Shown one piece after another: positions 9,241 through 46,542 of a stretch of DNA of 64,000 nucleotides (positions within the stretch are counted from its first letter, which is position 1; each line of letters begins with the position of its first letter). The stretch is from positions 248,001 through 312,000 of the forward strand of contig JAAVVG010000002.1 in assembly GCA_012976225.1 (NCBI GenBank), in the 5' to 3' direction. The stretch is from Golubevia sp. BC0850. Lineage: Eukaryota; Basidiomycota; Exobasidiomycetes; Golubeviales; Golubeviaceae. A program made the position numbers and the translations under genes. Under the pieces are notes generated by a model. That model made no database searches, was not told where the DNA came from, and saw nothing but the letters and a program-made list of their open reading frames with translations.

Positions 9241-12200
9241 ACCTAGATCGACCTTCCCTCTCATCCTCAATTCCTTTTGCTTTCCTCCTTCGCTGGATGC
9301 TCTATAAAAAACCCAAGTTCTGACAAAGTCTCAAATTTCAAGCTCGAGTGCAGTTCCAATCCCCTCCCTCCCATGATACAAAGCCCTCCTCTCTTTCAAT
9401 GATATCCCCACCTTCACAAGGTGATCTCTACCTTTTCCCCTTCTTCTAGATGCATTTCTTGTTTGCTGCTTGTCCGATTGGTGGGTCTCGCTTTCAATTT
9501 GTTTACTTTTTCAATTCCAATCTCCTTCCCAAACCAAGGTCCCGCTTTCCCCTTGTCCCTTCATTCTGTAGTAAAGCCCCGGTATCTTATTTCCTTTTCC
9601 CGAATACACGCATTTCTACTCTTCTCCACAATTGCTTTGCTAATTTGACGGCGAGGGATTCGCTTTGTGACAACGTATGAGACGGGTCCTCGACAGCGAG
9701 TCCAGTCCAGGTCGGTTGACACAAAGACTCGGTTCGTGTCTTTAAACAAGGGCGACGAGAGGATCAGATTGTCTTATGATCAGAATGGAACCATTTCTGT
9801 AATTCAAATGCAAGGGATAGGAGATAGGCAGTCTGCAATGGAATACTGTATCGGCATCGAAAATTGAACTTTGTTACACGAATTGTATATCAGCCTGCGT
9901 AAGCAAAGACCAAACAGCGAAGATCTCGAACCGGGACCAACTGAGTGCATTCAGCCCACCGGAATTCAGAGTGAAGTTTGGTGGTCTGGCGAAAACCGGA
10001 CCTGGAATCTCTTCAATCTCAGTTAGGAGCTAGACCCACACATTACATATTTCTCACACGGGCATCCCGGGATCCTTCTCCACTTGCTTCCAGTTATATC
10101 TTGTTTCCCGCAAACACCAACATGGAAGTCAAGTCGAAGGGTACTTTGGAGAGGAGATTCAAGTTTGTTCCAACTTCTCGTGTCGAGTTTCCAGATTTTC
10201 AACCCAGTCGCCTCGAGTAGTCGCCTTTGGGAAACAGGGTATGTGTATGCGGCGCATAGGTAAGCTGTCAATTTGTATCTGGGCGTGCAGACAAACGGAG
10301 AAGCTCAGAGCGTAACATCGTTGACCGTTGACGAATTGACGCTTGACTTGACGACTCACTGCAAGCTGTTCTGGCTTCAAGGTCCTCGAGTCTTAGTACC
10401 TAGACCCGCAGAAAGTGGTGGCAAAAGGTAAAACATTGAAGTGAGATGTTGAGAGTCCACTTGTCTCCTTCTGCTGTTGGTGAGCCAATATCAAGGGGCG
10501 GTGAAGAAAGGAGTGTCGACAGAATCGAGACTCTCGAAGACCTTGCACTTCTGCTACTAACAATCCAATCTTCCATTCCCACATCGTGCTCCATACATCG
10601 AATAGACCGATCAGAATCAGCACATTCTTTGTCTGGAGCTTGTCTGCGTTGAAGGCCCTCGTCCTGTCCTGGCTTCAAGGCAAGTTGTTTTCCCGCATCG
10701 ACATCAAATCAGAGAGCTTGCTACTGCAGAGAAGACCTACGATGACCATCTCTACAACGCTTGCATACTTTTGAGTGATGTTCTCCATTACGCTTGTGAT
10801 CTCCTTCTTGTGGTCCTTCGCTGTTTTGACGTTTGGTATGTCTATTGCAACCTTTGAAGCTTGGAACAGAGACCGAGTCTTTCTTTCTCCATGAATCAAA
10901 TGGATTGGTCTTGTGAATAGGTCATCACTCACACCAAGAAATCGTCAAAAGATTGGCTTCCGATGACAAAAAGGACTGTTGACCAGGAATTCTCAGAGCC
11001 AATACTCCTGTTTCCGTTCAATCTCCAAAAAATGACCTTGACGCCTTAATTTCATCCGATTATTTTTGAGGGAAGGAGCGAGACGGGCTACTCACCTTTA
11101 CTCCTGCGAGATCTTCTACAGAGCTTCAAGCCAAGGCCTGCTTGAGGATGAGAGATCGAATACAACTCCGTAGCTTAGGAAAAAAGGATGAAGATGGGAT
11201 GGATGGATGTCCAAGTTTCGAATCTTATCCGCCACGAATCTGATTGGTAAGTCTTTCGATCACCCAGCAACCCCCAGTCCTAGAGAACGAATCTTCAGTT
11301 GGAAATCATACCGTCTCGAGTGTGGTAAACGAGGAGATGAAATCTGAAATCGAATCGAAAGAAATGGGAGGGATATGGTGACAAGGGCCATTGATTGGAG
11401 ACTTGAAATGAGATGGATGGAACCAAGATAGAGTGCGATTCGAAAGAGAATGAAGGAGAGCGAGAGAGCGAGAGAGCGGGTGTTTAAGTGTGTGTGGAAG
11501 AGAAGAGGAGAGACCATGAAATAGTTCTTGAAGATAAGGGAAGAGGAGTATTGAAGGAAAGGCAAGAAGAGGAAGAAGGAATTTTCTTGTTGTTCAACGT
11601 TCAATGGCTTCCCGATTTTTTGCGATCTTTGTTCAGTTCGCTCGCTTCTGAACTAGCATTCCCTTCTTTTGGTCTGCTATCTTCGTAAAGAAGAGAAACA
11701 GAGCCAAAGATCAATGACCAACAAAGCTTCTATGTCAGACTGTACTAATATAGTGCGAGGAGGGAGAGTCAAGGTGTCCACTCTCTCGACCCATCGACCT
11801 CCTTTCCGCTTTCCTTTCTTCTACATACCCTCTCTCCTTGGACTGAGTTCATCGTTGGACATGATGGAGAGGGTTCTCCAGTAGCAATGATGCTACCCAA
11901 GAGCTAGAAGGCGTTTGTACACCCCTAGAACGACCCTTTTAACGCTTCACTTCCCCTTTACCTTTTGCTTGAGAGCAGGTGAACCAATTCTTTGAAGGTA
12001 AGAGAATTCCACCACACATCTCGAAGCAGAAAGGCAAAAAAGAAGGATGGATTGCATGACATTGGAGTTAAGAGCATAAGGCTTAAAGGGAGAAATATTT
12101 TGATCGAGAACAGTTAGACAAAAGAAAGTCATCTCGTTTTGGTTGTTTCACTTTTTTGGAAATTGAACAAAAGCTAATAATATTGAATGAACGAAAACAG

Positions 12201-34440: not shown

Positions 34441-36366
34441 ATGGAGAGAAAACGACCAACGCCTACTTCAAAGCAACCAAAGGAACCAAAGGAGCAATGT
34501 CTCTGTTAATCGGGATGTCAGTCCGACCCTGATGTCATTTTGATCAACTTCAGACTATTGGATGGGTCGTCTGTGACACTCAAGACCGAGTTTCAAGTTT
34601 CTGTAGAAGACTGTAAGTTTCCATACCTTCCACCTTTCTGACTTGAACTTCTTGGAACTTCAATCGAATAATGCGTTGCTCTGATATGAGTCTACTTAAT
34701 AGACACTGCATTCTAAACTTCTCTTCTCATCCTTTGCCGCTTCTCCCAGTACTCGACTCTCTGCCCGAACAAGATGACGAATACCTAGTCTTGCATGGTG
34801 GACGAAAACTTGACCTCAGAGCAACCTTGGAATCTCAATCTCTAAAGACTGGAGATCAGCTCGGTCTAGTTAGATCACCTTTCTATAGTCTGGGCCTCTT
34901 GTCTTCAAAATCTTAGAATTTGGGCTAGAGTTGATCGAGACCCACTACATTGAATTGAAAGACTTCGAACTTTGCACTGTCAAAGATGGTGAGTTGAGAT
35001 CCGATTGTTCCGAGTCGTCTGGCAGCTTGATTATTGAATCGCTTCCCCTCTCCCTCTCCAGTTCTGAGGAGGTTCCTTATCCCCGCGCAATTGAAGAATC
35101 AGGGTAGCTTGCTCTGCCAGGACATCAAAATTTCATCTAGTCCAACATTGACTCTTCGAGCCTTAGGAATCAAGCAACCTACGACATTCATCTTCTATCA
35201 TAAGAGTCTGGCTCTCAGCGTTTTCATCCCATCAACCGAGTCTTCAGAGGAGATCAGAATCTCGCTTGGGGACAAAGTGAAATTAAGGCTAAACCAGTTG
35301 AAGGACTCGATTCAGAGCTCAATCCAGTCTTGTATGGGCTAACGTTCGACGGATCCAGGCTCGACGACCAAAGTGTTTTCGGAGACACGAACCTCAAGGA
35401 TGAAGACACAATCCGATTACAGAAATTTTCAGAGGATGCATTCTTCCAAATTCGGTTTCCCGATGGCTGTTGTTCTCATCGCACACTCGGATTGAATTCC
35501 AGCTTGAATGCGTGTGAGTCTAGATCAAAGTCTCCGTCAACGTTTCTACAAGCACAGCTGACTTATCTCCATCGTTCTCCGTCGATCTTCTTTAGTCAAA
35601 AAGTGGTTTCTTAAGGAGAAGAAAATTCCCGTCTCTCACCAGCTCATCCTGCTCAACGACGTTGCAATCGATGGACCCATCACTCTCCGCGATGCCCTCC
35701 AAGACTCGCCAGGTGGAAATGCCTTGGAGATAGAGTGGAAGAAATTCGATCTCACCATCAAGGACCGTATCACTTCGAAACAGATCAAGCTGAAAGTCAT
35801 TGGTAAAGATACGACTGAAAATGTTGAGTCTGGTTCTCGAAAATTCTTTCGAAAGTTTCAAGGAGGAGGACTTTTAGTTCAAGACCAATCTTCTCTATCT
35901 TCTCTCAGTCAAACGAAAGATTGCTGCTCATATCGACATCCCAGCAAGTTGTCAAGAGGTGGAGCTTATTGGAAAGGAACTTGGTCACCGTGAAGCTCTT
36001 CATTCTCTCGGCCTTGGTCCTGCAACCTTGACACATCTAGATTTGTGGTATTCCAAACCGGACGTCAAGCTAAAAGTCGCTAAGAAAAATTTTGTCAAAG
36101 ATTCAGATCGACTTCTCATTAGAGTTGAAACGTGTGGGGATTTTCCTTGCAGGTTCATGGGTTACGAGTGCAAGAAGGGGACCAAGCTTTCTATTCTGCT
36201 AGATGCGGTTGAAGAAGAAATGCTCGTCAATCCTAGTGACTACTGGTTTCTCAAAGATTTCGGCATCTACGGGCTTTTGAAGACGGAAGACAAGGAGAAG
36301 ACTCTTGGTGAACTCGACGTCAACGATGGAACTCGTTTGGAGATGGTGAGGAAGAACTCTTTTTGA
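34441..36366 (+). pseudogene. Tandem ubiquitin-like domain protein, copy A (about six Ubl units, disrupted)
   Basis: Exons 34441-34612, 34750-34988, 35062-35513, 35596-35802, 35909-36366. The reading is a chain of degenerate Ubl units, each with a beta-hairpin start and a (L/I)KDGD-like or G-D-x-L turn. Unit 1: DVILINFRLLDGSSVTLKTE ... QSLKTGDQLGLV. Unit 2: ends with PTLTLRALGIKQPTTFIFYH. Unit 3: SSEEIRISLGDKVKLRLNQL ... YGLTFDGSRLDDQ ... NLKDEDTIRLQ. Unit 4: FFQIRFPDGCCSHRTLGLNS. Unit 5: KKFDLTIKDRITSKQIKLKV. Unit 6: ends with TLGELDVNDGTRLEMVRKNS. No C-terminal Gly-Gly is present, so conjugation is unlikely. Codon 23 after the well-placed ATG is TAA (34507-34509), and the frame changes near 34885 and near 35330; the second half is clean. 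A start in a 9-nt exon at 34363-34371 would bypass the stop but not the frame changes. Paralogue of the gene at 44686-46542. Confidence 0.7.
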
Positions 36367-44685: not shown

Positions 44686-46542
44686 CTAGCCGACAAGAAC
44701 TTTTCCAGCGATGATCATTTTGGATTTGCAGCCGCATCCGCAACCGGTTTGTTCGAGAAAGACAAAGATCGCATCTCCATCCTTCATGCTGAAATCTGCC
44801 AACCCTCCATAATCTCCCATCCTCTTGCCCTCGAAGATCAGTCGAGAAGTCAAGGGTTCCAATCCGAACTTCTTCTCGACGACCTCCATTAATTTCCCAA
44901 CTCTAGTGGACGGGCTGACTCTGCAAAAGAAATCTTCTTCGGCTTGAAAGAATCTGAAGGAGATATCGAACTGCTTGCTCCCCTCAGATTCGACTTTTTC
45001 ATATTTCAGGTCAAGATATGTTTCCGCTCCTATCCTTTTTTCGAAGATTACGTCTTCGTCTGACAGTTCCTTTCCGCGAAGGTCAAGGATCAGAGAGCTC
45101 GGAAGAAGTTCGATCTGACCATGGATCCTGCTTTTGACTGGAGAGAAGAGGAGAGCAGCGAGTTCAGCACATGAGAGTCCGTTTTTGAAGCGTTTGCTTT
45201 GACTCACCCTTCTTGATCGTATCCGCGCAGTCGACTTCGATCTCCAGCTCCTTAGAGGTGACCGAGTCGAGTATCGTGATGTTGAACTTCTTCAAATATT
45301 GTAGATTCGTCTCTCAGCTCTTTAAGATTGAATTACAAGATCTGTTGCGAGACGGGAAATTTTCTTTTTGTTGTAAGACCAGAATTTTGTTTGCCACACG
45401 TGAAGGGAAGGAGAACAGGGGATTAGTGCTTAGTAAAACTGACAAATTAAGATCTGTTTTCAAAAGACTCACGAGCTTTCACCTTGCTCGAGAGTTTCAC
45501 ACGCTCAGAGAAATAGGAATCATCAGGTACATTGATGCGGAGGAGTATGTATTCTGGTGCTTTCTTGAGGTGTAAAGTGTCTCCATCTTTGAGTCCCGTT
45601 TCACCGAAGCGATCTCTTTCGTCCACATTGAGTTCGTCATGATTCAAGTGGTAGAAGATGGGATTGAGGGAAGGGTTCTGGATTTCGAGAATCTTAGTCT
45701 TGAATTTATTGAGATTGTCAGCTTGCGAGACTTGGAATTTCTTATTAGAAGGAGTATGACCATCCAAATGAGGAATAGACAGGTTGAGTTGCAAAATCTG
45801 GTGGTAGAAGCTAAGAGTGGCAGGTCCTTTGGCCCCCTGGCGAGTGAAGAGTCAAAGCTGGATTCGATGTGATATTGACGTTTTCGTAGACGAGAATGCC
45901 TTGTTCGACACCTGCGACACCTTGCTGCTAAAGCAGCATAAGCACTGTCGGATGGAGGAGGAGTCCAGTACTCAGTGTCAGTGGATACTGCGTGTCAACC
46001 AAACAAGGTGTAAATCTGGCTCCAAGACTTACCTTTTCCGATGTCAAAGAAGCGGTCAAGCTCCACCTTGAGCTCATGAGTGGTGATGTGGCCGGGGCCA
46101 AACTCCATTACCTTGACGAGAACCTCTTCGCTCTTTGCAAGGAGCTCAATTCGATCTCCTGTCTTCAGACCAATCTCTCCCGGAGCTTCATCTGGAAACA
46201 ACTATCCTTCTTGACAGTAGATGAGGAGGTCTTCGATCTCTTGCTCTAGCTCCATAGATTCGAAGACTGAAATCAATCAGGGGAAAGTTGGGATGTTAGT
46301 CATGAAGTGAAGGAGAAGGCGCTGACAGTAAAGCAGGGTGATAAATCAGTTGAAGGAGTTTCTTGAGTACTGTATATGAGGAGAAGAGGGAAAGAATGTG
46401 ACTCACCATCCCTCAACTTGACTTCGAGTCGGGTTTCGAAGATCAGAACAGAATCGTTTGGTAGCTTGACGCAAATCAAGATAGCACTTGGATCTACCTG
46501 TCCTTCCAAGTAAGAGGCGAAGTATTCCTCTGCAGTAGGCAT
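44686..46542 (-). pseudogene. Tandem ubiquitin-like domain protein, copy B (about six Ubl units, disrupted)
   Basis: Clear exons are 46407-46542, 46033-46266, 45473-45920, one ending at 45208, and 44686-45137. Unit 1: MPTAEEYFASYLEGQVDPSA then ILICVKLPNDSVLIFETRLE ... EIGLKTGDRIELL. Unit 2: VKVMEFGPGHITTHELKVEL ... QGILVYENVNITSNPALTLH ... PATLSFYHQ. Unit 3: LNLSIPHLDGHTPSNKKFQV ... GLKDGDTLHLKKA. Unit 4: YILLRINVPDDSYFSERVKL ... ENFPVSQQIL. Unit 5: KKFNITILDSVTSKELEIEV. Unit 6: FDISFRFFQAEEDFFCRVSP ... FSMKDGDAIFVFLEQ, then the Cys-rich tail TGCGCGCKSK and no Gly-Gly. TAG (46202-46204) and TAA (45333-45335) interrupt the frame. A one-base excess in a C5/G5 run (45833-45837) and a shift just before the KKFN unit change frame. 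Exons 1 and 6 are clean. Paralogue of the gene at 34441-36366. Confidence 0.7.

Follow-up and report, generated by a model that had tools for sequence, protein, structure and literature searches.

Ubiquitin is the textbook case of extreme conservation, and chains in which ubiquitin-like (Ubl) folds follow one another are found in several settings. The animal proteins ISG15 and FAT10 are conjugated to their targets via a C-terminal Gly-Gly. USP7 carries five C-terminal Ubl units as part of a deubiquitinase, an array for which we know of no link to polyubiquitin. The Rad60/Esc2/NIP45 proteins are recognised by Rad60-SLD as their best family and possess two C-terminal SUMO-like domains. Divergent ubiquitin has been described in Plasmodium, where the abstract of one study mentions divergence of the ribosomal-fusion ubiquitin, the insertion of one codon in polyubiquitin and concerted evolution (PMC10457151).

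The locus considered here lies at positions 34441-36366 of a window of 64,000 nucleotides (the whole stretch of DNA that was analysed) on a contig designated C22, and is likely the degenerate remnant of one gene in a fungal multigene family whose source was a head-to-tail ubiquitin gene. A first-pass annotation had described a gene of five exons encoding six successive Ubl-like units with almost no linker and no C-terminal Gly-Gly, and this description has held up in part. Read in all frames, the locus comprises five exon pieces with Ubl-like sequence, separated by introns of 73-137 nt (Table 1). The translation and the unit profiles discussed below both bear out six nearly linker-free units in tandem, the turns that had been quoted as diagnostic are present in the translation, and this copy does indeed lack a Gly-Gly at its C-terminus. 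The draft protein is 474 residues in length, although a possible extra intron (donor GTGAGG, after RLEM) makes the C-terminus uncertain.

Table 1. Features of the 34441-36366 locus and of its relatives. Positions are those of the window unless given in kb, which refer to contig C22; E-values and probabilities are those of the unit profiles compared with ubiquitin.
Feature	Position or copies	Strand	Details
Proposed start ATG and leader	34441..34509	+	in-frame TAA at 34507-34509, ahead of unit 1
Ubl unit 1	34534..34868	+	exon parts 34534-34612, 34750-34868; E 5.5e-4, 30%
Unit 1 intron	34613-34749	+	GTAAGT..CAG, phase 1
Frame change, units 1/2	34869..34906	+	38 nt
Ubl unit 2	34907..35201	+	exon parts 34907-34988, 35062-35201; E 1.6e-5, 79%
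Unit 2 intron	34989-35061	+	GTGAGT..CAG, phase 1
Ubl unit 3	35202..35431	+	internal frame change 35310-35311; E 1.5e-7, 94%
Ubl unit 4	35432..35741	+	exon parts 35432-35513, 35596-35741; E 7e-14, 98%
Unit 4 intron	35514-35595	+	GTGAGT..TAG, phase 1
Ubl unit 5	35742..36060	+	exon parts 35742-35802, 35909-36060; E 5.5e-13, 98%
Unit 5 intron	35803-35908	+	donor upstream of the presumed paralogue donor position
Ubl unit 6 and stop	36061..36366	+	no Gly-Gly, no Cys-rich tail; E 8e-27 (10 rows), 99.7%
Second family member in window	44686..46542	-	six units, tail GCGCGC, broken
Lesions of second member	46202-46204; 45333-45335	-	TAG; TAA; frame changes near 45837 and 45290
Related loci on C22 (kb)	240.6, 282.4, 292.7, 343.7, 539.8, 547.9, 651.8, 752.4, 758.2, 829.5, 831.7, 878.3, 915.5, 918.7, 1074.5		282.4 is the 34441-36366 gene; 292.7 lies in the window
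Tail GCACGQ	L024, L027 plus
Tail GCACGC	L042
Tail GCRCGC	L022
Tail GCQCGC	L035
Tail GGACGQ	L026
Tail RCACGQ	L029 plus

The relationship of the units to ubiquitin was examined at several levels. In the draft, a single stretch passes the Pfam cut-offs, both for ubiquitin (PF00240, 5.9e-8, residues 175-222) and for Rad60-SLD (PF11976, 2.8e-6, residues 196-221), with the other units falling below the cut-off when taken singly. For the readings of two paralogues, PF00240 gives 1.2e-20 and 2.9e-38, significant profile matches to the ubiquitin superfamily like that of the draft. Identity with Rad60/Esc2/NIP45 was rejected, as PF11976, though above its cut-off, ranks below PF00240 in all three readings and the units number six, not two. 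A profile search of the separate units had been proposed in the first-pass annotation. When profiles of 11 rows each (10 for unit 6) were compared with a four-row ubiquitin/Ubl profile, all six matched ubiquitin, with unit 1 the weakest (Table 1), and in the aligned columns units 1-5 showed 16-30% identity with the ubiquitin profile. Control profiles reached probabilities of at most 0.35% when reversed and at most 4.1% when column-shuffled (20 per unit). We read the E-value of unit 6 as driven by the more ubiquitin-like paralogues; the last units at 240.6, 831.2, 758.4 and 917.2 kb of C22 lie above the Pfam ubiquitin cut-off in their own right (E 2e-19 to 3e-13). Units 3-6 find one another in profile comparisons, as do units 1, 4 and 6 (up to 98.5% probability). 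Unit 2 matches ubiquitin, but no comparison of it with another unit exceeds 35%, a point against the reading preferred here.

A profile of units 3-5 built from 10 copies, with unit 6 excluded, was also compared with the PDB and, among the best 60 of 478 matches, runs in register with linear polyubiquitin chains. Units 4-5 (profile residues 85-227) are aligned with residues 21-165 of chain A of 3u30, named linear di-ubiquitin (E 6.9e-25). For the tri- and tetra-ubiquitin chains the alignment starts within unit 3, at residue 51-52. Structure prediction had also been proposed in the first-pass annotation; AlphaFold2 models of exon 5 of the 34441-36366 gene (single sequence) and of unit 3 of the window paralogue (two rows) had mean pLDDT values of 33 and 42, respectively, too low to tell whether the fold is beta-grasp.

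Further clues to the origin of the family come from the introns. All four in the 34441-36366 gene are phase 1 as read. They interrupt units 1, 2, 4 and 5 where the helix begins, and those of the paralogues have the same location. A phase 1 intron at the matching place, V26, is also found in both ubiquitin units of the genome's Ub-Ub-AN1 gene. This is an ordinary gene (L030, C11:2096.5-2097.2 kb) with two ubiquitin units and a Cys/His-rich tail that we take to be an AN1 zinc finger. Counted against an origin from a ubiquitin gene are the absence of the V26 intron from unit 3 and the introns of the genome's four-unit polyubiquitin gene (L039), which lie after codon 62, so that the source would have to be another ubiquitin gene, with V26 introns. 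Taken together, the register with linear polyubiquitin and the V26 position suggest that the family is probably descended from a head-to-tail ubiquitin gene with V26 introns rather than from the present polyubiquitin gene as such. The chain of six divergent Ubl units proposed originally stands as an architecture, for which divergence of a head-to-tail ubiquitin gene is the best explanation.

The gene belongs to a family with at least 19 related loci in the genome, at least 15 of them on C22 and one each on C34, C32, C45 and C1. This count joins searches with the draft, with two paralogue queries and with the ubiquitin family, and is a lower bound, as only the best candidates were scored; three extra genome queries, with the best candidates scored, found no new family locus. 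Seven of the loci are fragments or single ubiquitin units (C22 343.7, 547.9, 651.8, 752.4 and 831.7 kb, C1 and C45). The copies were read with a purpose-written spliced aligner that permits frameshifts, giving scores of 281 to 2498 for six-unit copies and no more than 113 for reversed DNA in 21 stretches. The six units align across 11 copies, including L028, which is cut after unit 4, and L029 minus, which lacks the start of unit 1; a twelfth six-unit locus, on C32, was excluded as too damaged. The nearest relatives of the 34441-36366 copy are only ~35% identical to it.

Some family copies are flanked by a dispersed element, which was considered as a possible means of their spread. A 1.3-kb stretch (L027:6025-7338) is 98% identical to L028:3016-4329, where it sits at the point at which the family gene breaks off after unit 4. 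The L027 stretch has 41 matches genome-wide, most over one part of ~200-400 bases, marking it as a dispersed repeat, with matches inside the window at 11201-11476 on the minus strand and on other contigs. The STE3-like receptor and homeodomain families include mating-type genes. A link between the family and the mating-type locus was rejected, the matches to these families lying not on C22 but on other contigs (STE3-like receptor, C62:362.0-363.1 kb; homeodomain, C61:530.5 kb and C4:474.7 kb).

Comparison of the more closely related copies indicates purifying selection in the past. Codons were paired by protein-level alignment, which may lower the ratio, and Nei-Gojobori dN/dS was estimated in this way. 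L026, L027 plus, L028 and L029 plus form six pairs with ratios of 0.26-0.34, whether all aligned codons or units 1-5 alone are considered, and the window paralogue paired with L023 gives 0.33. The dS values of these seven close pairs are 0.78-1.26. Saturation (dS >2, three infinite) affects the nine pairs that involve L031 or L022, and the pairs exclude the 34441-36366 copy on account of its distance from its nearest relatives. The use of paralogue introns as a neutral yardstick was rejected: their aligned identity (0.67-0.92) overlaps that of an intron compared with 20 shuffles of its partner (0.61-0.78).

All 11 aligned copies contain stops or frameshifts according to the aligner, with two lesions each in L029 plus, L027 plus, L028, L031, L023, L043 and the 34441-36366 copy, three in L022 and L029 minus, and four in L026 and the window paralogue. 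The C32 locus has one stop and four frameshifts, that on C45 one stop, the 547.9-kb fragment on C22 one stop and one frameshift, and that on C1 two frameshifts, in an alignment many of whose introns are doubtful. In DNA alignments, a single-base indel is seen at the frameshift of L029, at that of L023 and at one of those in the window paralogue (near 45837), and a two-base indel at the L027 frameshift, amid several other gaps; some frameshifts that the aligner places next to an intron, as it does once each in L027 and L022, may be artefacts. The pieces read at C22 343.7 kb (units 4-6) are free of lesions, as are the single units found at 651.8 and 831.7 kb, and the same aligner found stops or frameshifts in none of 12 ubiquitin-type loci used as a control. 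The family looks to have been kept working for a long time and to be damaged now in every full copy found in the genome. Both the low dN/dS and the small number of lesions per copy are in keeping with the recent loss of a family that was once under selection and multiplying. Loss in every full copy is nevertheless odd, and something unrecognised may lie behind it.

What, then, of the 34441-36366 copy itself? The frame from the proposed ATG meets a TAA ahead of unit 1, and no in-frame ATG is found between this stop and unit 1. Two frame changes follow, one between units 1 and 2 and one inside unit 3 (Table 1). Between units 1 and 2, the frame could be repaired by an intron of 20 nt, and this GT-AG interval is the only one that keeps both units whole; any other repair would cost unit 1 its end or unit 2 its start. 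For unit 3, enumeration of GT-AG and GC-AG intervals yielded none that does not delete or replace part of the unit, and rescue of the frame by an intron was therefore rejected. At the presumed place of the paralogues' unit-5 splice donor, this copy has TTGAGT (35824-35829), with the donor that is left lying 21 nt upstream, and from this placing we infer that the unit-5 donor has been lost. The locus thus does not provide the single open message with regular splice sites expected of an intact protein-coding gene. It is best read as a pseudogene that probably makes no ubiquitin-chain protein any more, and the earlier proposal of a working gene, perhaps a scaffold built from Ubl folds, gives way before the early stop, the two frameshifts, the donor apparently lost and the damage in 11 of 11 aligned copies.

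Could the 34441-36366 gene still be functional as a Ubl scaffold, its lesions bypassed by non-canonical splicing or splicing of very short introns, or by production of several smaller proteins? Good donors are kept in three of its four introns (GTAAGT, GTGAGT and GTGAGT), the 20-nt interval would restore the frame between units 1 and 2, and the last exon lies inside a stop-free frame of 162 codons. We consider this improbable, however, as a 20-nt intron would be exceptional beside the 73-137 nt introns placed in the gene, no enumerated interval rescues unit 3 intact, the leader contains an in-frame stop, and the lesions of the paralogues differ in kind and place. That the lesions are instead sequencing or assembly errors in an intact family is very unlikely: several of the frame changes are one- or two-base indels, a point in its favour, but many of the lesions are nonsense codons, the 12 ubiquitin-type loci are clean, and the window contains nine stop-free frames of at least 500 codons (22.7 kb in total), which serve as a rough control only, the long frames having been selected.

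A different objection concerns ancestry rather than decay, namely that the units did not arise from ubiquitin and resemble it in fold only. The low identity of units 1-5 to the ubiquitin profile is what this would predict, yet it is hard to credit given an intron position and phase held in common with ubiquitin units, the register with linear polyubiquitin and the last units of four copies that pass the Pfam ubiquitin cut-off. A decayed member of a ubiquitin-derived family remains the reading we prefer.

A Cys-containing tail takes the place of the last Gly-Gly in eight loci (Table 1), and five of the eight belong to the set of 11 aligned copies. No such tail is seen in L023 or, as far as they are aligned, in L029 minus, L043 and the 34441-36366 copy, which counts against the preferred reading; this tally covers neither L031 nor the truncated L028. 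Six-frame translation of the fetched loci (395,704 positions) contains 16 instances of the CxCG pattern, tails included. L022 and L035, on different contigs, have in common a DLPWE stretch after the tail, and comparison of the two suggests a conserved C-terminal extension of ~20 residues. L024 (C22:651772-651972) is a single ubiquitin unit in an open frame that ends LRLLGCACGQ-stop, without Gly-Gly, and has an intron at Y59, the position also used by unit 6 in the L026-L029 copies. At C22 831.7 kb, the single unit ends ECPYGQ.

How widely the family is distributed was addressed by searching the protein database, where two family queries found no match with E <=10 among 7997 and 7994 candidates scored, in a search that needs shared five-letter words and similar length and could miss distant or intron-broken relatives. 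A control gene from the window found 342 matches at E <=1e-10, many of the best 120 of them basidiomycete. Among these 120, two metagenome-type entries are 64% identical, the best named relatives belong to the Ustilaginomycotina (Pseudozyma hubeiensis, 47%), and the only recognised Pucciniomycotina name, Mixia osmundae, is the 38th match (36%). A Pucciniomycotina origin, implied by the proposal of the first-pass annotation to search proteomes of that group, is therefore doubtful, and on this comparison the organism probably lies outside that group. The same annotation knew of no described fungal protein with six divergent Ubl units, and full-text searches of an open-licence library likewise yielded no description of a fungal counterpart of the six-unit chain.

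The ancestral product of the family would have been a chain of six ubiquitin folds, roughly 450-520 residues in length. As the last unit is still close to ubiquitin in several copies, it could be seen by ubiquitin receptors, whilst known ubiquitin biochemistry implies that a chain without Gly-Gly would escape both activation by E1 and cleavage by deubiquitinases. On this basis, we tentatively suggest that the working protein may have been an uncleavable mimic of linear polyubiquitin and a ligand of ubiquitin receptors, and that the Cys tail might have served as an anchor or lipid-attachment site. In a broader and equally speculative view, a head-to-tail ubiquitin gene might have given rise in one fungal lineage to a new class of six-fold, uncleavable, non-conjugatable chains, many of them capped by a Cys tail, that worked under purifying selection, underwent birth and death mainly on one contig in the manner of a conflict-driven family, and may still work in other strains or relatives even though every full copy here is broken. 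If this is true, a novel type of protein can evolve from linear ubiquitin chains, far diverged, selected, multiplied and in many cases bearing a Cys tail in place of Gly-Gly, and the family offers a natural test of what a non-conjugatable, uncuttable ubiquitin chain can do. The chief interest of the 34441-36366 gene is as a damaged relic that testifies to this family.

Set beside known systems, the family resembles the Plasmodium ubiquitin genes in its escape from the usual extreme conservation but differs in that the abstract of that study makes no mention of a Ubl chain with a replaced Gly-Gly (PMC10457151). It resembles the C-terminal array of USP7 in having several non-conjugated Ubl units in a row, and ISG15 and FAT10, which appear among the best 60 of the 478 PDB matches of the units 3-5 profile, in consisting of divergent tandem Ubl units, though these have two units rather than six. 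With the Ub-Ub-AN1 gene it has in common the phase 1 intron at V26 in each ubiquitin unit; that gene, however, has two ubiquitin units with Gly-Gly followed by a Cys/His-rich tail, whereas the family has six divergent ones. Polyubiquitin precursors of the UBI4/UBC type, represented in this genome by the four-unit L039, are alike in their linker-free, head-to-tail ubiquitin folds and in-register profile. In place of near-identical units each ending in Gly-Gly, the family has strongly divergent units 1-5 with no Gly-Gly at unit ends, a Cys-rich tail for the final Gly-Gly in eight loci, and introns at V26 rather than after codon 62.
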